DNA from: Promethearchaeota archaeon
GTDB taxonomy: Archaea; Asgardarchaeota; Lokiarchaeia; Sigynarchaeales; SOKP01
Direction: 5' to 3'
Assembly (NCBI GenBank): GCA_016839425.1
Contig: JAEOUI010000245.1
Location: 1-7,479, forward strand
DNA length: 7,479 bases
Part shown: in pieces, positions 1 to 7,479 of the stretch
Layout of the letters: each line of letters starts with the position of its first letter
Numbering within the stretch: the first letter of the stretch is position 1
Translations under genes and position numbers: made by a program
The notes under the pieces: generated by a model
What the model was told of the DNA's origin: nothing
The model's input: the letters and a program-made list of their open reading frames with translations, nothing else
Databases searched by the model: none

Positions 1-159
1 AGAATAAAGGAGGAAAATCAACCTATTTACCTAGAAACACACACGGAGTACAATGTAAATTTCTATAAAAATCTTGGATTTAGGGTATTAGAAGAATCTT
101 TAATTCCAAATACGGAAATAAAGCAATGGGCCATGCTAAACGACTTTAACATGAAATAA
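1..159 (+). CDS. GNAT-family N-acetyltransferase, C-terminal fragment
   Basis: This frame is open from the left edge to a TAA stop at 157-159 and encodes 52 residues, so the gene begins outside the window. The fragment contains YLETHTEYNVNFYKNLGF, followed by a segment with IPN and WAML. That is the typical end of GCN5-related acetyltransferases: the beta strand with the LET motif, then N-x-x-FY-x-x-LGF around the final helix and strand, and a closing W-x-M strand. Members of this family move an acetyl group from acetyl-CoA to an amine. The acetyl-CoA loop (R/Q-x-x-G-x-G/A) lies upstream and is not visible, and the substrate cannot be read from this part. The next gene starts 177 bases later, behind its own AT-rich promoter-like box, so the two are probably separate units. 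Confidence 0.72.
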   Translation, partial: RIKEENQPIYLETHTEYNVNFYKNLGFRVLEESLIPNTEIKQWAMLNDFNMK

Positions 160-228
160 ATATTCTCTTTATTTCAATCAATAAAAATCATCATAATTAT
201 ATTTCTTGAAGGATATTGATTTTTAATT

Positions 229-254
229 CATTTGAGAACTAAAATACATTTGAG
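229..254. repeat. Direct repeat CATTTGAG, 18 bp apart, upstream of the hydrolase gene
   Basis: CATTTGAG occurs at 229-236 and again at 247-254. The pair lies 82 to 107 bases upstream of the GTG start of the ADP-ribosylglycohydrolase gene and upstream of its TATA-like box. Two equal sites 18 bp apart could be an activator site. In such AT-rich DNA an 8-mer repeated once is weak evidence. Confidence 0.25.
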
Positions 255-296
255 TAGAATGATTTTTTACTCATAAAAAGATAATTAATGAGATGG

Positions 297-314
297 TATT
301 ATTTAATATTAAAA
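297..314 (+). promoter_or_regulatory. TATA-like promoter box for the ADP-ribosylglycohydrolase gene
   Basis: TATTATTTAATATTAAAA lies 22 to 39 bases before the GTG start at 336. An archaeal TATA box is usually centred about 26 bases before transcription starts, so a start near 330 and an almost leaderless mRNA would follow. No Shine-Dalgarno sequence is present in front of the GTG, which agrees with leaderless translation. Confidence 0.4.
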
Positions 315-335
315 TTAAAGAATAATTAATTAAAA

Positions 336-1286
336 GTGAAAGAGTTAATTTCAAGGATTAAAGGTGGCATTCTCGGACTAGCCATAGGAGATGCCTTAGG
401 TGCTCCTGTAGAAATGCAATCCAGTCGGTTTATTAAGGAAGAGTTTGGAGTTTTGAACAACTTCTTAGATAAAAGATACTGGAAAGGAGAATGGACTAAA
501 TGGGAAAAGGGAAAATGGACGGACGATACGGCTTTTACTTTAGAAATTATTAAATCAATTATTGAAAAACAGAAGATCGATCCAGAAGATATATCCAATA
601 GATTTTTCAATCTAGCTGAAAGTGGAGAACTTGAAAACATGCTTGGAGGGACTACAATAAGAGCAATGAAAGCAATTGGAGATGGTTACTCCTGGGAAGT
701 GACAGGAAAGATTGCGATGAGAGAGGAAATACAAGGAGCAGGAGGATTGATGAGATCATTGCCAATTGGAATATTTTTGTATCGTTTTCCCAGAGAAAAT
801 CAAATTCAAAGCAGGAATGTTTGTCGTATAACTCACGCGTCTCCCTTAAGCACGGATGCATGCGTTGTCTATAATACAATCGTTGGAGAAGTATTGTTAA
901 ACGATCTTTCAATTGAGGAAATCCGTAAAGTATTAGAACAAATAGCGTTATCAGCCGAAATAAATAGCGAAGTAAGTGATGGGATTAATAAAGCGTTAAA
1001 AACTTCGAAAAATGAAATCGCACCTTTCAAAGATCGAGAACCAAATATATTATCCATTTTCGAGACGAGTTTATGGATATTTTTGAACTCAATTAATTTT
1101 GAAGACGCTCTTGTGATATCTATAAATATTGGAGGTGATATAGACACAATAGCAGCAGTTACAGGAGGCCTCTTAGGGATATATTATGGTCTAGAATCCA
1201 TCCCTAAAAGATGGTTGAGAAAATTATCTCAGAAAAAAGAAATAAATACTTTAATTAATGAATTATGCAAACTCATAGCAGGTTAA
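336..1286 (+). CDS. ADP-ribosylglycohydrolase (DraG/ARH family)
   Basis: This 316-aa protein belongs to the ADP-ribosylglycohydrolase fold (PF03747 type), which removes ADP-ribose from proteins or other targets using two Mg2+ ions. The family signatures appear in order: G-L-A-I-G-D-A-L-G-A-P-V-E at residues 14-26, the metal-binding TDDT at 62-65, GAGGLMRSLPIGIF at 134-147, ITHASPLSTDA at 165-175, and the second metal site GGDIDT at 266-271 followed by a glycine-rich helix. All expected Mg2+ ligands seem to be kept (TDDT 62-65, D268, D270, T271), so the enzyme is probably active. It has no signal peptide and should be cytoplasmic. The length is normal for the family. A stop codon in frame at 327-329 rules out a longer N-terminus, and the next in-frame ATG is at residue 27, inside the first motif, so GTG 336 is the start. 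No ADP-ribosyltransferase or nitrogenase gene is visible nearby, so the substrate is open. Confidence 0.93.
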   Translation: MKELISRIKGGILGLAIGDALGAPVEMQSSRFIKEEFGVLNNFLDKRYWKGEWTKWEKGKWTDDTAFTLEIIKSIIEKQKIDPEDISNRFFNLAESGELENMLGGTTIRAMKAIGDGYSWEVTGKIAMREEIQGAGGLMRSLPIGIFLYRFPRENQIQSRNVCRITHASPLSTDACVVYNTIVGEVLLNDLSIEEIRKVLEQIALSAEINSEVSDGINKALKTSKNEIAPFKDREPNILSIFETSLWIFLNSINFEDALVISINIGGDIDTIAAVTGGLLGIYYGLESIPKRWLRKLSQKKEINTLINELCKLIAG

Positions 1287-1325
1287 AATATGATATTTGT
1301 ATTTTAGGAGAGATTGAAAATTGAG

Positions 1326-1369
1326 CCCTCTTTAATATTAGAAGTCTAATAAACTTCTAATATTGAGGG
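1326..1369 (+). terminator. Long stem-loop 40 bases after the hydrolase stop, possible 3'-end structure
   Basis: The arms are CCCTC (1326-1330) with GAGGG (1365-1369), and AATATTAGAAG (1334-1344) with CTTCTAATATT (1354-1364). This gives 16 paired bases with a TTT bulge on the left side and a 9-base loop (1345-1353). Its position just behind the hydrolase gene suggests a transcript 3' end or stabilising structure. It is not followed by a T-run, which archaeal termination normally needs, so terminator is a best guess. A small mobile-element remnant or a protein site would also fit. Confidence 0.4.
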
Positions 1370-1430
1370 TGATAAGATTATGAGTTTTTCAATAGTAAAA
1401 AATATATTATCTAATTTAAGTGTTACGGAA

Positions 1431-1444
1431 TTATAATATAGTAT
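1431..1444. repeat. Copy 1 of the 14-bp repeat TTATAATATAGTAT
   Basis: The same 14 bases occur at 2291-2304, where they overlap the likely promoter of the - strand TrmO gene. Both copies sit inside short dyads: here TAATATAGT (1434-1442) pairs with ACTATATTA (1453-1461). The two copies lie on either side of the TrmO gene, in the same orientation. The sequence is AT-rich, so chance cannot be excluded. Confidence 0.35.
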
Positions 1445-1601
1445 GAAGTGCCACTATATTAATTTTAAGTTTAATTTTAATAATATCCTTTTCCCTCTTA
1501 AGTTTTTGAAATAAATATATTTCTTAAATTATAAATTGCATTGATAAAATAATGGGAAATCTTCTAGACAAAAAATAAATTAGAATTTCAATAATAAATA
1601 T

Positions 1602-1630
1602 AGGATTTTTTTTGGTGTATATAAAATCCT
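1602..1630 (-). terminator. Possible 3'-end hairpin of the TrmO gene
   Basis: AGGATTTT (1602-1609) and AAAATCCT (1623-1630) form an 8-bp stem with a 13-base loop. The stem begins 22 bases past the stop of the - strand TrmO gene and is followed, on that strand, by AU-rich sequence. Read on the + strand the same place holds a run of eight T (1606-1613), so it could also stop + strand transcription from the left. Confidence 0.3.
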
Positions 1631-1652
1631 TAGAGTTTTTTCGAAATTTGGA

Positions 1653-2258
1653 TTAATTGGTATTAATACAAGGATGAGCACGAATATCAGAAGATTCCTG
1701 ATGTGTAGAATCATTTAGTCCATTATTTATTCTCATTTTATTTAATCTATCCATTAAATCATACATCCAGTCCGCTAGTTTAACATTTATAGGTGAATCC
1801 GAAAATGTTAGGTGGGGTTTAATGTCTATTACGGGAGTATCGTTTATGGCGTCTAATCCTTCAACAAATAGAATAGATCCTTTTTTTTCCACTAATCTTA
1901 CAGTTGTCTTGCAAATTGGATTAGGTCTTACAGGAGATCTCGTTGCAAATATTCCTTTCAATGGCATTTCCATTAACCCTGCGGGGTGTACTTTTTTAAT
2001 TTGACGGGCTTCTTCAGGAACCTCATTCGTCCAGAAAATAATAATGATGTGTGAAAATTCTTCAATCCCATCCAAGCAGTCTATATATTCTTCGTTTATT
2101 ATGATTTGAGAAGTTTTTACATCGTTTGTATGATTTTCTTTCACATCAAGATCTAATTTTATGTCTCTATTTGAATATTTTAAGATTGCCTTATTCAATT
2201 TGCTTTTTACGATTCCTATTGGTTTTATAATATATTCTTTCAAGATAGAATTACTCAT
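1653..2258 (-). CDS. trmO: TrmO/TsaA-family tRNA N6-methyltransferase (t6A37 methylation)
   Basis: This 201-aa protein carries the TsaA/UPF0066 beta-barrel domain. Characterised bacterial members (TrmO, formerly YaeB) use S-adenosylmethionine to methylate N6 of threonylcarbamoyl-adenosine at tRNA position 37. The signature GIFATRSPVRPNPI stands at residues 102-115, after HPAG at 91-94. It is followed by VRLVEKKGSILFVEGLDAIND (120-140) and TPVIDIKPH (141-149), all typical. An N-terminal strand PIGIVKS (13-19) opens the barrel. E. coli TrmO has a further C-terminal domain. Here only about 50 residues follow the core, ending in a polar tail that looks unstructured, as in the shorter archaeal members. 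The ATG at 2258 has a TATA-like box 33 to 46 bases upstream. The gene is divergent from the epimerase at 2435. The archaeal substrate is inferred from the family. Confidence 0.88.
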   Translation of the reverse strand: MSNSILKEYIIKPIGIVKSKLNKAILKYSNRDIKLDLDVKENHTNDVKTSQIIINEEYIDCLDGIEEFSHIIIIFWTNEVPEEARQIKKVHPAGLMEMPLKGIFATRSPVRPNPICKTTVRLVEKKGSILFVEGLDAINDTPVIDIKPHLTFSDSPINVKLADWMYDLMDRLNKMRINNGLNDSTHQESSDIRAHPCINTN

Positions 2259-2282
2259 TTTCTTTGTTTAAAATACCTGATC

Positions 2283-2304
2283 ATACTATTTTATAATATA
2301 GTAT
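2283..2304 (-). promoter_or_regulatory. Probable TrmO promoter with dyad; copy 2 of the 14-bp repeat
   Basis: On the - strand this reads ATACTATATTATAAAATAGTAT in two halves: ATACTAT and ATAGTAT (plus-strand 2298-2304 and 2283-2289) are perfect inverted arms around a TATA-like core. The core centre is about 38 bases before the TrmO ATG, which would give a leader of roughly 10 bases. The 2291-2304 part repeats bases 1431-1444 exactly. The dyad around the box could let a repressor compete with TBP. Confidence 0.4.
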
Positions 2305-2400
2305 TACTTTTAAGTCCATAGCTTTTTGTTTTGAGAGTATAATTTTTTAGAAAAAGATTTTTTCACATTCGCTTAAGATTTCTTTATCAAGGGAAATAAA

Positions 2401-2408
2401 TTATAAAT
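2401..2408 (+). promoter_or_regulatory. TATA box of the epimerase gene
   Basis: TTATAAAT is centred about 30 bases before the ATG at 2435. With usual archaeal spacing, transcription would begin about 4 bases before the start codon, making a nearly leaderless message. No ribosome-binding sequence precedes the ATG; the space is T-rich. Confidence 0.5.
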
Positions 2409-2434
2409 TAGAAGTAATTTTTTTCTCATTAATT

Positions 2435-3481
2435 ATGACTAAAAAATTTCTTATCACGGGTGGAGCTGGGTTTCTTGGAATCAATCTATGTCGATATCTA
2501 CTGAAAAAAGGATACGATGTTCGGAGTTTAGATGTGGCAGAATTTGATTATCCCGAAAAAAATCGTGTTGAAGTCATTACTGGAGATATAAGAGACGAAA
2601 AAATAGTAAATAATGCCTTTGAAGGCGTGGATATTGTCGTCCATTGTGCTGCAGCATTACCTTTATACCCGCCCGAAGAGATTTATGCTGTAGATGTTAT
2701 TGGCACTGAAATTATCATGAATAATGCTCTAAAACACGGGGTCGATCGAGCAGTAATGATCTCTTCAACAGCAGTTTATGGCATTCCCGACCACCACCCA
2801 CTCTACGAAGACGATCGATTGGAAGGAGTGGGTCCATATGGGGAAGCAAAAATTTTAGCTGAAAAAGTATGTGAAAAATACCGAAAAAAAGGGTTGTGCG
2901 TACCTATCTTACGCCCAAAATCCTTTATTGGTGAGGAACGCCTTGGAGTGTTTGCAATTTATTACGATTGGGTTGTAAGCGGAAAAAGCGTACCAATTGT
3001 GGGAAATGGAAGGAATCGTTATCAACTTTTAGATGTTCAGGATTTATGTGAAGCCTGTCATCTTGCGTCCACTTTACCAAAAGAAAAAGTCAACGATGTA
3101 TTTAATATTGGAGCTGAAAAATTCACGAACATGAAAGAAGATTTCGGTGCCGTTCTAACTAAGGCAGGATTTGGTAAGAGAATCATTCCCACGCCTCCAA
3201 AATTAACTATTTTGGGATTGAGAATCCTTGAAAAAATGAAATTATCACCATTATATAAATGGGTATACGAGACAGCTCCCGAGGACTCTTTCGTTTCGAT
3301 AGAAAAAGCTCAACAAATGTTGGGTTTTAAACCCAAGTACAGCACCAAGAGAACGCTCGTGAAAACCTACGATTGGTACAAGAACAATCACGAAAAAACA
3401 AGTAATAAAACGGGAATTTCCCATCGGGTACCTTGGTCTCAAGGAATTCTAAAATACGCAAAAAAATTAATGATATTATAG
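2435..3481 (+). CDS. NAD-dependent epimerase/dehydratase (extended SDR, sugar-nucleotide type)
   Basis: This 348-aa cytoplasmic protein has an N-terminal Rossmann fold. The dinucleotide motif TGGAGFLG is at residues 8-15 and an acidic D33 ends the second strand, favouring NAD over NADP. GDIRD (50-54) and HCAA (70-73) follow. The active site is readable: SSTAVYG (110-116), with T112 at the catalytic Ser/Thr position, and the Y135-x-x-x-K139 pair. The C-terminal half (NRYQLLDVQDLCEACHLA and beyond) resembles the substrate lobe of GalE-like enzymes. Such enzymes epimerise, dehydrate or reduce nucleotide-linked sugars, and the exact substrate cannot be told. The last 25 or so residues, with SHRVPWSQGILKYAKK, extend past the usual fold and may form a helix that docks on the membrane or a partner. 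The next + strand genes encode sequon-rich surface proteins, so a role in glycan supply is possible but only inferred. It stands alone with its own promoter. Confidence 0.9.
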   Translation: MTKKFLITGGAGFLGINLCRYLLKKGYDVRSLDVAEFDYPEKNRVEVITGDIRDEKIVNNAFEGVDIVVHCAAALPLYPPEEIYAVDVIGTEIIMNNALKHGVDRAVMISSTAVYGIPDHHPLYEDDRLEGVGPYGEAKILAEKVCEKYRKKGLCVPILRPKSFIGEERLGVFAIYYDWVVSGKSVPIVGNGRNRYQLLDVQDLCEACHLASTLPKEKVNDVFNIGAEKFTNMKEDFGAVLTKAGFGKRIIPTPPKLTILGLRILEKMKLSPLYKWVYETAPEDSFVSIEKAQQMLGFKPKYSTKRTLVKTYDWYKNNHEKTSNKTGISHRVPWSQGILKYAKKLMIL

Positions 3482-3524
3482 AGATTATTTCAGACTGGTT
3501 TTTAGGACAATAAGAAAGAAAACT

Positions 3525-3566
3525 TCTTGTAAAAATATTTTTACAAGATGTAAATTAATTTTTACA
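3525..3566. promoter_or_regulatory. Two tandem operator-like dyads, TGTAAA-N6-TTTACA, 21 bp apart
   Basis: Site 1 is TGTAAA (3528-3533) with TTTACA (3540-3545), and it extends to a perfect 24-bp palindrome at 3525-3548. Site 2 is TGTAAA (3549-3554) with TTTACA (3561-3566). Both have exactly six bases between arms, and their centres (3536.5 and 3557.5) are 21 bp apart, two DNA turns, so two dimers would bind the same face. They lie 30 to 70 bases upstream of the TATA-like box at 3596. That suits an activator, or a repressor that loops or coats. Site 1 could also fold as a hairpin and end the epimerase transcript, whose stop is 43 bases before the palindrome. Confidence 0.6.
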
Positions 3567-3586
3567 ATAATTCGCCGTTCTTCGTC

Positions 3587-3614
3587 TAGAAAGCCTTATA
3601 TGTTGCCCTTTCTA
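3587..3614 (+). promoter_or_regulatory. TATA-like box TTATATG flanked by an inverted repeat
   Basis: TTATATG (3596-3602) lies between TAGAAAG (3587-3593) and CTTTCTA (3608-3614), a perfect 7-bp inverted repeat with a 14-base spacer. A transcription start near 3623-3626 would be expected. The arms cover both sides of the TBP/TFB footprint, so a bound dimer would block initiation. Together with the dyads upstream this looks like a regulated promoter for the transglutaminase region. Confidence 0.45.
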
Positions 3615-3622
3615 TTGTTTAT

Positions 3623-3721
3623 GTGAGTTTAATCGAGGTTAAGCTTTCTTGCGTTGATAATGGAAGAGTAAACCAATATGAATCTAATATTATCATAAAA
3701 GAGCTAACTTCGAATATTTAA
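3623..3721 (+). CDS. Possible leaderless small ORF (32 aa) upstream of transglutaminase-like protein A
   Basis: GTG at 3623 opens a 32-codon frame beginning MSLIEVKLSC and ending IIIKELTSNI, with TAA at 3719-3721. The GTG lies about 24 bases after the centre of the TATA-like box at 3596-3602, the spacing expected for a leaderless start. The ATG two bases earlier (3621) runs straight into TGA and cannot be used. The stop is 22 bases before the start of the transglutaminase-like gene. The peptide is mixed polar and hydrophobic without a membrane segment, and I recognise no family. A similarly placed 27-codon frame precedes the second paralogue. In DNA this AT-rich a 32-codon frame can occur by chance, so this is a candidate only. 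Confidence 0.35.
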   Translation: MSLIEVKLSCVDNGRVNQYESNIIIKELTSNI

Positions 3722-3727
3722 AATAAA
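3713..3727 (+). promoter_or_regulatory. Alternative TATA-like box for transglutaminase-like gene A
   Basis: AATATTTAAAATAAA is centred about 24 bases before the ATG at 3744 and would give a leaderless message. It overlaps the end of the small ORF. Gene A may therefore have its own promoter, be read from the box at 3596, or both. Confidence 0.35.
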
Positions 3728-3743
3728 GATATGGACAATAAAA

Positions 3744-5006
3744 ATGAATAAAATAAAAAAAATAACCTTAAAGTATTTATCATTAGCTCTTATAGCGTGC
3801 GGACTTGCTGTTTCAGTTACAAATATATCTTCTTCAATAGGAACGCATCCCAATGATAGTTTAGAATTCTTAAACACATCAGTTGCGACTAATTATACAA
3901 TTAATAAGAGCATTACCTACGAAGTAATTCTCGATTATGCTTTCCAACACACGACAACAAGTTATGGATATTATTGGTTTAAAATGCCACGATTCGATAA
4001 TCGAGGTCCTGAATCTATAGATACACCTGATACTCCGCCATATCAAGAAAGCACTCTGATGGAACATGAAATTGTGGGAAATGAAAGTGAAATATATTTG
4101 TATAAAGACAAGTTTAATAATAAGTTTGATATTTTTAACCAAACTTCACCATCGCAAAGTCAGATTATAGGATACCACGCAAAATACAATATTACGGTTA
4201 ATCAAATAACTTTTGGCGATATAGACGAATATAATCCCATATATGACTATTCGGATCCGATCTTTGACTTATATTGCAACAACACTGAACAATATTTCAA
4301 CATTAGCGACCCAGATCTCATTTACGCAGCATATAATGAATGCAATATATTCTCAACAGATACCCCCGTGACTAAAGCAAGAAAGATTTGCGAGTTTGCG
4401 AATAGCCACATTACATTCAATGGGAGTTCAAACACGGAATACGGTGCTTCGGTGGCTTATGAAAGGGGCGAGGGTGATTGTTCCGAATTTACTGATTTGG
4501 CAATAACTCTCTTGAGAATTCATAAGATCCCCGCTCGTAAAGTTCACGGTTTTATAGTTGGCGATAATCTCCAGTTCCAACTAGAAGAAGGCTATCATGA
4601 AACAAACAATTTGAATGGACATGTGTGGTTAGAATATTATGTACCTAATATTGGTTGGATTTCATGCGAACCACAAGATCCGAGTCGGTATAAAATAAGC
4701 TATTGCAATATACTCGAAAAAACAGTTGGAGCTTGGTTTGAATTTCCAAATTTCGATGGTTCAACTATTTACCTTTCCGAATGGGGAGGCCTTCCAGTTT
4801 CTTTTAATTCGTCGGGTAAATATGTTTACATGAATTTTACAGTAATAGTAATTGATGTAAATATTAATATGAATTCAGAGGAGGATACAAGCCCTTCACC
4901 AGATAATAGCATTGGACTTAGCTTATTTGGAGAAATCGGAATCTTAATAATTTGTTCTGTTGGTTTTACATCACTTGTAATACTCCGAAAAAAACAAAAT
5001 TGTTAG
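3744..5006 (+). CDS. Secreted, membrane-anchored transglutaminase-like protein A (catalytic Cys and His kept)
   Basis: This 420-aa protein has a basic start and a hydrophobic stretch at residues 11-26 (signal peptide or anchor). A beta-rich extracellular region follows, then a transglutaminase-like core at about 205-325, and a C-terminal membrane helix at about 398-414 before RKK. The core shows GDCSEFTDL with nucleophile C246, then KIPARKV, then GHVWLEYY with H293, then GWISCEPQDP. Glu309 stands where the triad Asp usually is, and D312 is close by. Proteins of this superfamily act on Gln or peptide bonds through a Cys thioester: cross-linking, deamidation or proteolysis. Which applies here is unknown. 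There are 12 N-x-S/T sequons, in keeping with an N-glycosylated surface protein. The N-terminal LIAC at 16-19 resembles a lipobox, but the paralogue has Phe at that place, so a lipoprotein is doubtful. ATG 3744 is the start because the hydrophobic segment follows at once. Confidence 0.85.
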   Translation: MNKIKKITLKYLSLALIACGLAVSVTNISSSIGTHPNDSLEFLNTSVATNYTINKSITYEVILDYAFQHTTTSYGYYWFKMPRFDNRGPESIDTPDTPPYQESTLMEHEIVGNESEIYLYKDKFNNKFDIFNQTSPSQSQIIGYHAKYNITVNQITFGDIDEYNPIYDYSDPIFDLYCNNTEQYFNISDPDLIYAAYNECNIFSTDTPVTKARKICEFANSHITFNGSSNTEYGASVAYERGEGDCSEFTDLAITLLRIHKIPARKVHGFIVGDNLQFQLEEGYHETNNLNGHVWLEYYVPNIGWISCEPQDPSRYKISYCNILEKTVGAWFEFPNFDGSTIYLSEWGGLPVSFNSSGKYVYMNFTVIVIDVNINMNSEEDTSPSPDNSIGLSLFGEIGILIICSVGFTSLVILRKKQNC

Positions 5007-5027
5007 TAAAAAATCCAATTTCCAATC

Positions 5028-5037
5028 TTTTTTTTTT
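5028..5037 (+). terminator. Oligo-T terminator after transglutaminase-like gene A
   Basis: A run of ten T begins 22 bases after the stop codon, in a C/T-rich stretch and without a stem in front. Archaeal RNA polymerase stops at such runs. It suggests that gene B is transcribed from its own promoter and not only by read-through from A. Confidence 0.6.
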
Positions 5038-5125
5038 CCTACTTCTAAGAAATAATTTTGAAGATCTAACTCTTTTTGACCATTCAAAACATTTTTTAAT
5101 TGGAATAAGATTCTTCATCAGCAAC

Positions 5126-5133
5126 TTTTATTA
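5126..5133 (+). promoter_or_regulatory. TATA-like box upstream of small ORF and transglutaminase-like gene B
   Basis: TTTTATTA is centred about 25 bases before the ATG at 5155, the same spacing seen for the box and GTG in front of gene A. The match to a TATA consensus is modest and the surroundings are very T-rich. Confidence 0.28.
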
Positions 5134-5154
5134 TTTTCATCATATTTACTATTA

Positions 5155-5238
5155 ATGTGTTTAGTTGGGAAGATAAGGAAAAATTCATTTATTGCATCAA
5201 GAGTTGAATTTGATAAGGGATTAATAAAAGAATATTAA
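5155..5238 (+). CDS. Possible leaderless small ORF (27 aa) upstream of transglutaminase-like protein B
   Basis: ATG at 5155 opens 27 codons beginning MCLVGKIRKN and ending GLIKEY, with TAA at 5236-5238, only 8 bases before the ATG of gene B. A TATA-like box lies about 25 bases upstream. The start region resembles that of the small ORF before gene A: ATGTG then TTTA occurs in both, with two extra bases in A, and TTA is codon 3 in both. Both peptides hold an R-V pair and end near I-K-E. This may mean the promoter and ORF were duplicated with the genes. The peptide is too short to assign and may be non-coding leader sequence. Confidence 0.3.
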   Translation: MCLVGKIRKNSFIASRVEFDKGLIKEY

Positions 5239-5246
5239 GGAAAAGG

Positions 5247-6491
5247 ATGAAAATAAACAAAAAAATTATTCAGAATTATGTAGTTTTAGCAATCGTTGCC
5301 TTTGGTCTTCCGATTTCTGCAATGAGCAGTATTTTAGTAAGTAATAATATCGATGAGACATATTCAAGCACTATAAAGATTTCGAAGGCTTCAAACTATA
5401 CAATTGCTCAAAGCATTAAATGTGAAGTAGTACTCGATTTTATCTTCTCTCAAACAGATACGAATCCACATAATTTTTCATGTAAGGTACCTCGCTTCGA
5501 TACGAGAGGTCCTGGTTCGTCCTTATCTGCTAATACGCCCCCATATCAAGTAAGTGAGCGATTAGAACACGATATTAATGGATCTCAATACGAGCCTTTC
5601 TTAACCCGGGACAGGTTTAATAATACATTTGATGTATTTAATTACACGTTCATGCCATATGGACAGAAAATGAGCTATCACACAAAATACAACATAACTT
5701 TAAATCAAGTAATTTTTGACGACCTTGAAGATTATTATCCAACATACAATTATTTCGATCCTATCTTTGACTTGTATTGTAATAATTCAGAATTGTATAC
5801 CAATATTAGCGATCCTCAACTTATTAATTGTGCCATAAACGAGATGGGGATTCATGCTGACGATTCTCCAATGACCAAGGCGCGAAAAACATGTGCTTTC
5901 GTGAGTAACCACTTGGAATTTCAATCGATGTCCGGCGTTCATAGAGGTGCATCGTGGGCTTACGAAAATGGAATAGGAGATGGTTCAGAGTTCTGCGATT
6001 TAATGGTAACCCTTCTGCGGATACTCAAAATACCCGCACGAAAAGTAGAAGGTTTTATCATAGGACCTAACAACTTAGAATTCAAGCCTTACGAAGGATA
6101 TACTCAAACAAACAACTTTAACACGGGCATATGGATTGAATATTATATTCCAAATATAGGGTGGATTGCGTGCGAACCACAAGTTGCTACCGAGTACAAG
6201 ACGAGTCATTTTACATTGATACACTCAGTCGTGGGAGCGTGGTTTAGCTTTCCTCTAATTGATAACTCTACTTTCTGGCTTTCAGAATGGAACAATGCAA
6301 TGTACACCAAAACTTCTCCTTATGACGCCACGATCAATTTTACCGTGAAAATTATAGATATAAACCTTGTATCTTCAAATAAAAATAATATTAAAGAATT
6401 TGATTGGATAAAAACTATTAGTATTGTTTTTTTTTGTTCAATTGCAGTTCTTTGCCTTGTAGTGTTTATTGGAAAACGAAAATTTGAATGA
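5247..6491 (+). CDS. Secreted, membrane-anchored transglutaminase-like protein B, probable pseudoenzyme
   Basis: This 414-aa paralogue of protein A matches it along the whole length. In residues KVPRFD through FDVFNYT I count 30 identities in 55 by hand, and the first 245 residues need no net gap. It has a hydrophobic N-terminal segment (11-26), an extracellular region with 10 N-x-S/T sequons, and a membrane helix at about 391-408 before GKRK. In the transglutaminase core, GDG replaces GDC, so the nucleophile Cys is Gly246. NTGIW replaces NGHVW, so the His is Gly294. Glu310 of the CEP motif and the structural KIPARKV and NIGW segments are kept. A Cys appears four residues later (C250), but without His it is unlikely to restore activity. 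The intact frame and kept fold argue for a selected non-catalytic role, such as binding a ligand or partner of A. A purine-rich AAGG lies just before the ATG. The stop is 27 bases from the convergent regulator gene. Confidence 0.83.
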   Translation: MKINKKIIQNYVVLAIVAFGLPISAMSSILVSNNIDETYSSTIKISKASNYTIAQSIKCEVVLDFIFSQTDTNPHNFSCKVPRFDTRGPGSSLSANTPPYQVSERLEHDINGSQYEPFLTRDRFNNTFDVFNYTFMPYGQKMSYHTKYNITLNQVIFDDLEDYYPTYNYFDPIFDLYCNNSELYTNISDPQLINCAINEMGIHADDSPMTKARKTCAFVSNHLEFQSMSGVHRGASWAYENGIGDGSEFCDLMVTLLRILKIPARKVEGFIIGPNNLEFKPYEGYTQTNNFNTGIWIEYYIPNIGWIACEPQVATEYKTSHFTLIHSVVGAWFSFPLIDNSTFWLSEWNNAMYTKTSPYDATINFTVKIIDINLVSSNKNNIKEFDWIKTISIVFFCSIAVLCLVVFIGKRKFE

Positions 6492-6518
6492 AATATTATT
6501 TATCAAGCAATCTTTATT

Positions 6519-7232
6519 TCAATCATCAATAACTTGCTTTTTTCTTGAAAGAATCAGAAATATAATGCTACAAGTAAAAGCAAAAATTAATAATACCAAT
6601 CCAATTAGTTCCGTAATCAATCCAGATATATTATTACCCATAACAGTGATTTTACCAAAAACCAGCAATGCACCGAGAAAGCTGGATAATGATATTGCAA
6701 AAATTAATAACCGATTCTTTTTCAGAAAATATATCCAGATAAGGTTCATTAATAGATACGATAAAATCGATTTGGTGCGATATAGTACCATTAAAATAAT
6801 CGTTATCGCTAAAAAGACAAATATAATACCTAAAATGCGATTATCAATCATCAATAATATTCCTAAATAGAAAAATGCAAACCACCACGATGTTAGTAAT
6901 ATATATGGTGTATTTAAATTACTAAAATTGTATCCAATTCCAGAAAGTTTAAGAAAAACCGAATTTTTATTTTCGCTAAACATTATCAAGGATTTCTTTC
7001 CTTCCTTAGTCAGATAATAATCACCGTCTTTAGATTTTTCGAGTAAATTCGCATCAACGAGGATTTTTATGTGATAAGCGATATTACTAGAGGCAGGCAA
7101 GTTTAAGGATTTTAAAAGATATGAATATGAGACTGTAGAATTATGTTTTTCAATGATTCGAATAATATCACGTCGTATGTTATGTCCTAAAGCTTTAAGG
7201 ACATTCTTGATTTTTTCCTCGTCTTCCTCCAT
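6519..7232 (-). CDS. Membrane-bound winged-helix (ArsR-like) transcriptional regulator
   Basis: This 237-aa protein has a DNA-binding domain at about residues 7-85. LGHNIRRDIIRII (15-27) is the first helix of an ArsR-type fold, SYSYLLKSLNLPASSNIAYHIKILVDANLLE (35-65) holds the turn and recognition helix, and GDYYLTKEGKK (70-80) is the wing. Five hydrophobic segments follow, at about 112-129, 133-151, 155-170, 174-192 and 205-228, ending with SRKK. It is therefore a one-component regulator fixed in the membrane with its DNA-binding part in the cytoplasm; no separate sensor domain is seen. The signal might be membrane state, a lipid or a partner protein. It is convergent with the transglutaminase pair, ending 27 bases from gene B, and is a candidate for their control, though no shared site proves this. 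ATG 7232 fits a TATA box about 34 bases upstream. Confidence 0.85.
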   Translation of the reverse strand: MEEDEEKIKNVLKALGHNIRRDIIRIIEKHNSTVSYSYLLKSLNLPASSNIAYHIKILVDANLLEKSKDGDYYLTKEGKKSLIMFSENKNSVFLKLSGIGYNFSNLNTPYILLTSWWFAFFYLGILLMIDNRILGIIFVFLAITIILMVLYRTKSILSYLLMNLIWIYFLKKNRLLIFAISLSSFLGALLVFGKITVMGNNISGLITELIGLVLLIFAFTCSIIFLILSRKKQVIDD

Positions 7233-7236
7233 TCTA

Positions 7237-7270
7237 AGTTAACATCCAAACAAGTAGTTAACATATAAAA
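7237..7270 (-). promoter_or_regulatory. Regulator promoter: TATA box and direct repeat AGTTAACAT
   Basis: On the - strand TTTTATATG (7270-7262) is a good TATA box about 34 bases before the ATG at 7232, giving a predicted leader of about 7 bases. On the + strand AGTTAACAT occurs at 7237-7245 and 7256-7264, 19 bp apart, each with the palindrome GTTAAC. One copy overlaps the TATA box and the other covers the predicted transcription start. Binding there would block initiation, so self-repression by the winged-helix protein is a natural guess. Confidence 0.5.
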
Positions 7271-7374
7271 CGCAATAGATAATAAAAATCCATCTGGTAA
7301 ATTCTTAAATAATCAAATTTCTTGAGATTTAAAGCTAAAAATTGGAGAGGAGAAAAACTGCCCATATTCTTGAA

Positions 7375-7477
7375 TCAAAAGTATTTCAAAATATAAATAA
7401 AAATCCTTGCGAACATGGTAATGTTCGCTTCAAATCACGGTAACTTTTTTTCCTTGTAATGCCAAGTCCAGCTGCCT
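7375..7477 (-). pseudogene. Possible frameshifted remnant of an FAD/NAD-dependent oxidoreductase
   Basis: On the - strand, codons from 7477 to 7433 read RQLDLALQGKKVTVI and then meet TGA at 7432-7430. LALQGKKVTVI resembles the second Rossmann strand of pyridine nucleotide-disulphide oxidoreductases, where E usually follows. Skipping one base (T at 7432) gives EANITMFARIF, which continues in the expected style, before the frame closes at 7377-7375. No further coding similarity is seen to the left. It may be a decayed gene end, a real C-terminus ending in VTVI, or coincidence. The rest lies beyond the window. Confidence 0.25.
7409..7428. other. Perfect 8-bp hairpin with GGTA loop
   Basis: GCGAACAT (7409-7416) and ATGTTCGC (7421-7428) pair fully around the loop GGTA. 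This is one of the few GC-containing stems in the AT-rich spacer. On the - strand it is followed by T-rich sequence (from 7404 down), so it could end a transcript coming from the right. On the + strand seven T lie at 7445-7451. A protein-binding site is the other option. Confidence 0.45.
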
Positions 7478-7479
7478 TA

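Follow-up and report, generated by a model that had tools for sequence, protein, structure and literature searches.

The 7,479-nucleotide Promethearchaeota stretch analysed here (contig JAEOUI010000245.1, positions 1 to 7,479; hereafter the window) encodes two adjacent transglutaminase-like proteins, A and B, of which B has lost both the catalytic cysteine and the catalytic histidine. Judged by its closest relatives, the window itself comes from a Lokiarchaeal organism. An orthologue in a second Lokiarchaeal genome shares this double loss in an uninterrupted reading frame, and it stands at a locus from which A is absent. Purifying selection has acted on B since the loss and is common to its one orthologue. 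On balance, B is probably a conserved pseudoenzyme that arose through duplication, double loss and purifying selection, and that serves a surface binding role independent of A.

Two paralogues, one without its catalytic residues

The two genes and the codons that distinguish them are as follows.

3744..5006, + strand: gene A (open reading frame, PF01841), a predicted membrane-anchored transglutaminase-like protein with Cys246, His293 and Glu309
4479..4481, + strand: codon TGT, catalytic Cys246 of A
4620..4622, + strand: codon CAT, catalytic His293 of A
4668..4670, + strand: codon GAA, Glu309, third triad residue of A
5247..6491, + strand: gene B (open reading frame, PF01841; orthologue P0002), a predicted membrane-anchored pseudo-transglutaminase
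5940..5942, + strand: His232 of B
5982..5984, + strand: codon GGT, Gly246 of B, replacing the catalytic Cys
5994..5996, + strand: Cys250 of B, in the same helix and four residues past the lost Cys
6126..6128, + strand: codon GGC, Gly294 of B, replacing the catalytic His
6174..6176: codon GAA, Glu310 of B, the retained third residue, read from the sequence

A and B are 47% identical in an alignment that spans almost the full length of both. Each matches Transglut_core (PF01841) above the Pfam gathering cut-off of 23, A with 67.7 bits (E 1.3e-18) and B with 52.5 bits (E 6.8e-14), and both have the papain-like/transglutaminase fold as predicted. The predicted models are of good confidence (mean predicted local distance difference test, pLDDT, of 84.1 for A and 84.6 for B) and contain the same parts in the same order: an N-terminal helix that is hydrophobic by sequence in both proteins, a beta domain, the transglutaminase core and a C-terminal hydrophobic helix. 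The Cys-His-Asp/Glu triad is complete in A, whereas B presents Gly246, Gly294 and Glu310 at the same places. From its sequence A would be an active-type transglutaminase-like cysteine enzyme. B, with its catalytic residues gone and its fold retained in the model, is a predicted pseudoenzyme.

A loss shared with an orthologue and rare in the family

The orthologue, P0002, lies on contig JAFGGO010000182.1 (locus L001) of Candidatus Lokiarchaeota archaeon Zod_Metabat.1389 (genome G001). Along its length it shares 68% identity with B, and it carries Gly and Ala in the two catalytic columns. Its neighbourhood corresponds to that of the window: the gene is flanked by an NAD-dependent epimerase (91% identical to the window counterpart) and a winged-helix regulator (58%), with TrmO upstream (77%), and a CPBP/Rce1-like gene sits between the B orthologue and the regulator. 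In a tree of 47 rows, from which both catalytic columns were removed, B and P0002 group together (support 100/99), A joins them (100/100) and P0004 comes next (100/99). Since A falls outside the grouping of B and P0002, the duplication that produced A and B predates the split of the two species. The residue loss shared within this grouping likewise means that the double loss occurred once, before the lineages separated. The loss is thereby placed on one branch of the Lokiarchaeal family tree, with a triad-bearing sister gene adjacent.

The family alignment in which the rarity of this loss was gauged comprises 99 sequences, near-identical ones included, drawn from two protein searches, a genome-contig scan and a phylum-wide genome search. 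The genome search covered 227 genomes of the phylum of G001 at a threshold of E 1e-30 or better and yielded 56 matches, a family member being present in 49 of the genomes. All but two of these matches (54/56) were aligned, and the partial matches G119:C136 and G087:C191 stand outside all catalytic-residue counts. Cysteine occupies its column in 97 of the 99 sequences, the exceptions being B and P0002. Histidine is found in 95 of the 98 sequences with a residue at that position (one fragment has none); it is replaced by Gly in B, by Ala in P0002 and by Gln in P0046, the last with its Cys retained. Both residues are absent solely in B and P0002. In the third triad column, read in 98 sequences, 69 have Asp and 29 have Glu; the Glu seen in A and B therefore falls within the normal variation of the family.

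Further searches added no third sequence of this type. A profile built from B and P0002 gave 13 matches in a third protein search, none of them an additional B-type protein; eight family members found later, in this search, all carry GDC and GHAW when read by eye. Nothing else comparable to B was found in the genus (3 genomes) and family (65 genomes) of G001, where the next best match has E 3.9e-75 against 7.6e-273. A B-type gene thus occurs in G001 alone among the three genomes of the genus, while some family member is present in 46 of the 65 genomes of the family. Among viral contigs, 600 pattern matches led to no confirmed relative.

P0046 (L043:3261-4769), a protein of 503 residues encoded away from the usual locus of the family, may represent a second, partial catalytic loss, and its genome retains another copy with the triad.

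Constraint on B after the loss

Neither B nor P0002 contains an internal stop or a frameshift, so both of the known B-type genes are intact. In a simple neutral simulation the average number of stops was about 8 to 18, and at each of three divergences all 500 runs contained at least one. Between B and P0002 the proportions of synonymous (pS) and nonsynonymous (pN) differences are 0.63 and 0.19, with a dN/dS of 0.16 by the Nei-Gojobori method (NG86) at a dS of about 1.4, which is near saturation. For scale, dN/dS between the window and L001 is 0.06 for the epimerase, 0.22 for TrmO and 0.21 for the regulator.

Within B, constraint is strongest in the transglutaminase core. Over residues 201-311 the pN/pS of this core is 0.15, lower than in all 84 related-gene pairs of 62-82% identity that retain Cys and His (0.169-0.389, median 0.278). 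The segment around the lost His (residues 286-312) is 78% identical between B and P0002, the median of the 84 pairs being 71%. Columns with a conservation of 90% or more across the family number 95; of these, 71 are retained by B, 71 by P0002 and 74 by A. Beyond the two losses, the changes fixed in the B clade include His for Glu232, Cys for Ser250 and Ile for Ala295, and Cys59 and Cys79 are new there as well. Because a related species without A at the locus has kept B, B looks like a selected pseudoenzyme, a dead enzyme with a job of its own rather than a decaying copy. A pseudogene, a frameshift or an assembly artefact as the explanation for B was set aside in view of the intact orthologue.

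A preliminary description of this DNA, made from its letters and reading frames, had proposed adjacent paralogues with common N-terminal, core and C-terminal segments, one with Cys246 and His293 and the other with Gly246, Gly294 and Glu310, and had taken the loss of both catalytic residues in an intact frame as a sign of selection. The reading frames, codons, PF01841 matches and alignment bear out the first point, the models give both proteins one architecture, and the uninterrupted orthologue with its constrained core agrees with the last. The two observations named there as fatal to this interpretation, decay of B-type genes and non-conserved Cys and His columns, are both contradicted by the counts above.

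History of the locus

By open reading frames and Pfam, the gene order in the window is ADP-ribosylglycohydrolase, TrmO, NAD-dependent epimerase, A, B and a DUF7347 winged-helix regulator. The features around A and B are listed here.

336-1286: ADP-ribosylglycohydrolase, upstream of the A/B locus (PF03747, E 9.5e-60, a good score)
2435..3481, + strand: NAD-dependent epimerase, the locus marker 5' of A
3482..3743, + strand: spacer before A, homologous to the spacer before the lone B orthologue of L001
3528..3566, no strand assigned: operator-like palindrome pair, TGTAAAAATATTTTTACA and a copy with 3 mismatches, both also present in L001
6519..7232, - strand: DUF7347 winged-helix regulator with hydrophobic segments, the locus marker 3' of B

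At L001, 276 bases lead from the epimerase to the B orthologue and A is absent. Since A is missing from the locus of the sister genome, B is probably independent of the neighbouring A gene. Besides its B, a profile search of G001 returned only one weak match and a full-length triad-bearing paralogue, G001:C180, whose identity to A is about 36%. The L001 spacer aligns with the spacer before A at a score of 174.5 (100 shuffles, 98.3 +/- 8.5); its score with the spacer between A and B, 119.5, is inside the shuffled range (96.1 +/- 8.4, maximum 124). Because the spacer of the lone B is homologous to that before A, the most likely history is a deletion of A in the Zod lineage, which would have shifted B behind the upstream region of A. 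The reverse, an insertion of A into the window lineage, would require an outside source for A and is not favoured over the simplest course, deletion. If the deletion did take place, an enzyme at the surface of an Asgard archaeon would have been replaced at its own locus by its non-catalytic copy.

Near codon 57 of P0002, sites change sharply from A-like to B-like (maximum chi-square, 1/5000 permutations), a pattern in keeping with the deletion of A. A recombination junction in the 5' coding end was not relied on, as a fast-evolving signal sequence could mimic one and spacer homology is the better evidence.

The two palindromes, each of 18 bp and 21 bp apart, precede A in the window (3528-3566) and the lone B orthologue in L001 (9798-9836). 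The pair resembles a double operator, and the DUF7347 regulator encoded nearby may be the protein that binds it. When 300 upstream bases were scanned for each of 45 family genes (43 flanked loci), the palindrome TGTAAA-six bases-TTTACA was present solely before the L001 gene.

The preliminary description had further treated A and B as a tandem unit of active and inactive partners, and this part of it does not hold. No conserved pair of this kind was found: B stands alone in L001, the locus of the one other available genome with a B-type gene, and the only other tandem pairs found, G002:C267 and G103:C231, have a complete triad in both copies. One copy of each of these pairs bears a long C-terminal extension (L002:1820-3817 and L052:3669-5678; 666 and 670 residues in total), and the extended copy of L002 terminates with CxxC motifs.

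Possible roles of B and competing explanations

In the proposed course of events, an ancestor of this Lokiarchaeal lineage would have gained a second copy of a surface transglutaminase-like cysteine enzyme by gene duplication. One of the two copies would have lost its nucleophile (Cys to Gly) and its base (His to Gly or Ala) before the two species split, and the inactivated copy would then have been retained by purifying selection. With a signal segment at its N-terminus and a transmembrane helix at its C-terminus, B would be displayed outside the cell. There it would bind without turnover in the inherited groove, acting as a receptor, adhesin or scaffold, and its ligands may be peptides or protein side chains of the kind on which A-type enzymes act. 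B is most likely a surface binding or scaffold protein built on an inactivated transglutaminase fold, comparable to protein 4.2 or Cyk3.

A less probable but serious alternative, already raised in the preliminary description, is that B is a dead subunit which modulates a live protein on the cell surface, as a regulator or heteromer partner either of A or of some other active paralogue. The two genes are adjacent, and their products are alike in architecture and in the order of secondary structure in the models. A precedent is yeast Cyk3, described in part of PMC4758748, whose Cys-less transglutaminase-like domain stimulates another enzyme, Chs2. On the other side, A is missing at the sister locus, the triad is intact in both copies of both other tandem pairs, and 240 bases separate the two genes, so that a shared transcript is not evident. 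Since G001, with B but without A, keeps the triad-bearing G001:C180, B could partner another paralogue instead. Any association with A, as regulatory subunit or heteromer, could only be local and non-obligatory. It is considerably more doubtful that B is a rewired enzyme, in which Cys250 and His232 of the same cleft replace Cys246 and His293 and a surface cysteine enzyme has evolved beside its ancestral-type sister. Among the 99 sequences both residues are exclusive to the two of B type, the usual residue being Ser at position 250 (89 sequences) and Glu at position 232 (94), and migration of catalytic residues within the superfamily is documented in the portion of PMC10318531 consulted. Against this, both old catalytic positions were lost together and residue 250 may be buried; Cys59 and Cys79 arose in the B clade too, so its new cysteines may be structural. 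Least credible of all is a decaying duplicate that has yet to acquire stops. The tree path from the common node is slightly longer for B than for A (about 0.61 vs 0.44), but the core pN/pS of 0.15 is reached at a pS above 0.6, neither species shows a stop or frameshift, and the core is at least as constrained as in pairs that keep Cys and His.

The reading of B as a constrained, A-independent pseudoenzyme has several points against it. Over residues 50-372 its pN/pS is 0.20, at the low end of the range of the 84 pairs rather than below it (0.195-0.426, median 0.321), and the same sequences recur in several of these pairs, which are therefore not independent. In the helix segment 240-260, B and P0002 are 81% identical, slightly under the 84-pair median of 86%. 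With just two known B-type sequences, the estimate of constraint is a single comparison at nearly saturated synonymous sites. The A-like 5' end of P0002 (33 vs 23 informative sites) could stem from saturation in the fast signal region. Finally, G001 is a metagenome-assembled genome of unstated completeness and A could sit outside its contigs, though no contig break interrupts the slot at the locus.

The usual home of the family

Across 43 loci with flanks, which hold 45 family genes (for example L038:8133-11628), the transglutaminase gene adjoins a gene for a GTPase-like protein, mostly of 439-493 residues, in 34 loci and a gene for a protein of about 213 residues in 33, with both neighbours present in 31. 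The three large neighbours checked in Pfam all match Gtr1_RagA and Arf. Three of the small neighbours gave no match above the Pfam cut-off, and a comparison of the 213-residue protein with the PDB gave no convincing relative (best E 0.07); a longin-like nature is a guess only. G001:C180 sits at this home locus. A and B of the window and the B of L001 lie elsewhere, and the A/B group is therefore an offshoot away from the GTPase-linked locus. The wider family, with its Rag/Arf-like GTPase gene at the usual locus, may merit attention in itself.

Comparison with known systems

The structure 3ISR, a putative transglutaminase-like cysteine protease from Cytophaga hutchinsonii with a presumably intact triad, is 13-16% identical. 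Erythrocyte protein 4.2 (EPB42; 7uzs, 7tvz) is a eukaryotic, cytosolic protein bound to band 3 at the membrane, in which the loss is independent.

Pseudo-transglutaminases are already known in eukaryotes, as the available parts of PMC4758748 and PMC10318531 describe. The initial claim that no archaeal system of this kind has been described agrees with searches of openly licensed papers, which, judged by title and abstract start, brought up no inactive archaeal surface transglutaminase. In the section of PMC4758748 at hand, the yeast Cyk3 domain resembles B in lacking the catalytic Cys and stimulates the chitin synthase Chs2, but Cyk3 is intracellular and retains His and Asp, whereas B has lost both Cys and His. 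Rad4/XPC, CC2D2A and FBXO21 likewise contain inactive transglutaminase/papain-like domains retained for other roles, although they belong to other families and compartments and the examples in that part of PMC10318531 are eukaryotic. The TG-type adhesin-like proteins of methanogens differ in their archaeal big domains and pseudomurein-binding repeats, and the excerpted text of PMC11532034 mentions no inactive copy; like B, they are described there as archaeal, membrane-anchored surface proteins with a transglutaminase-like domain.
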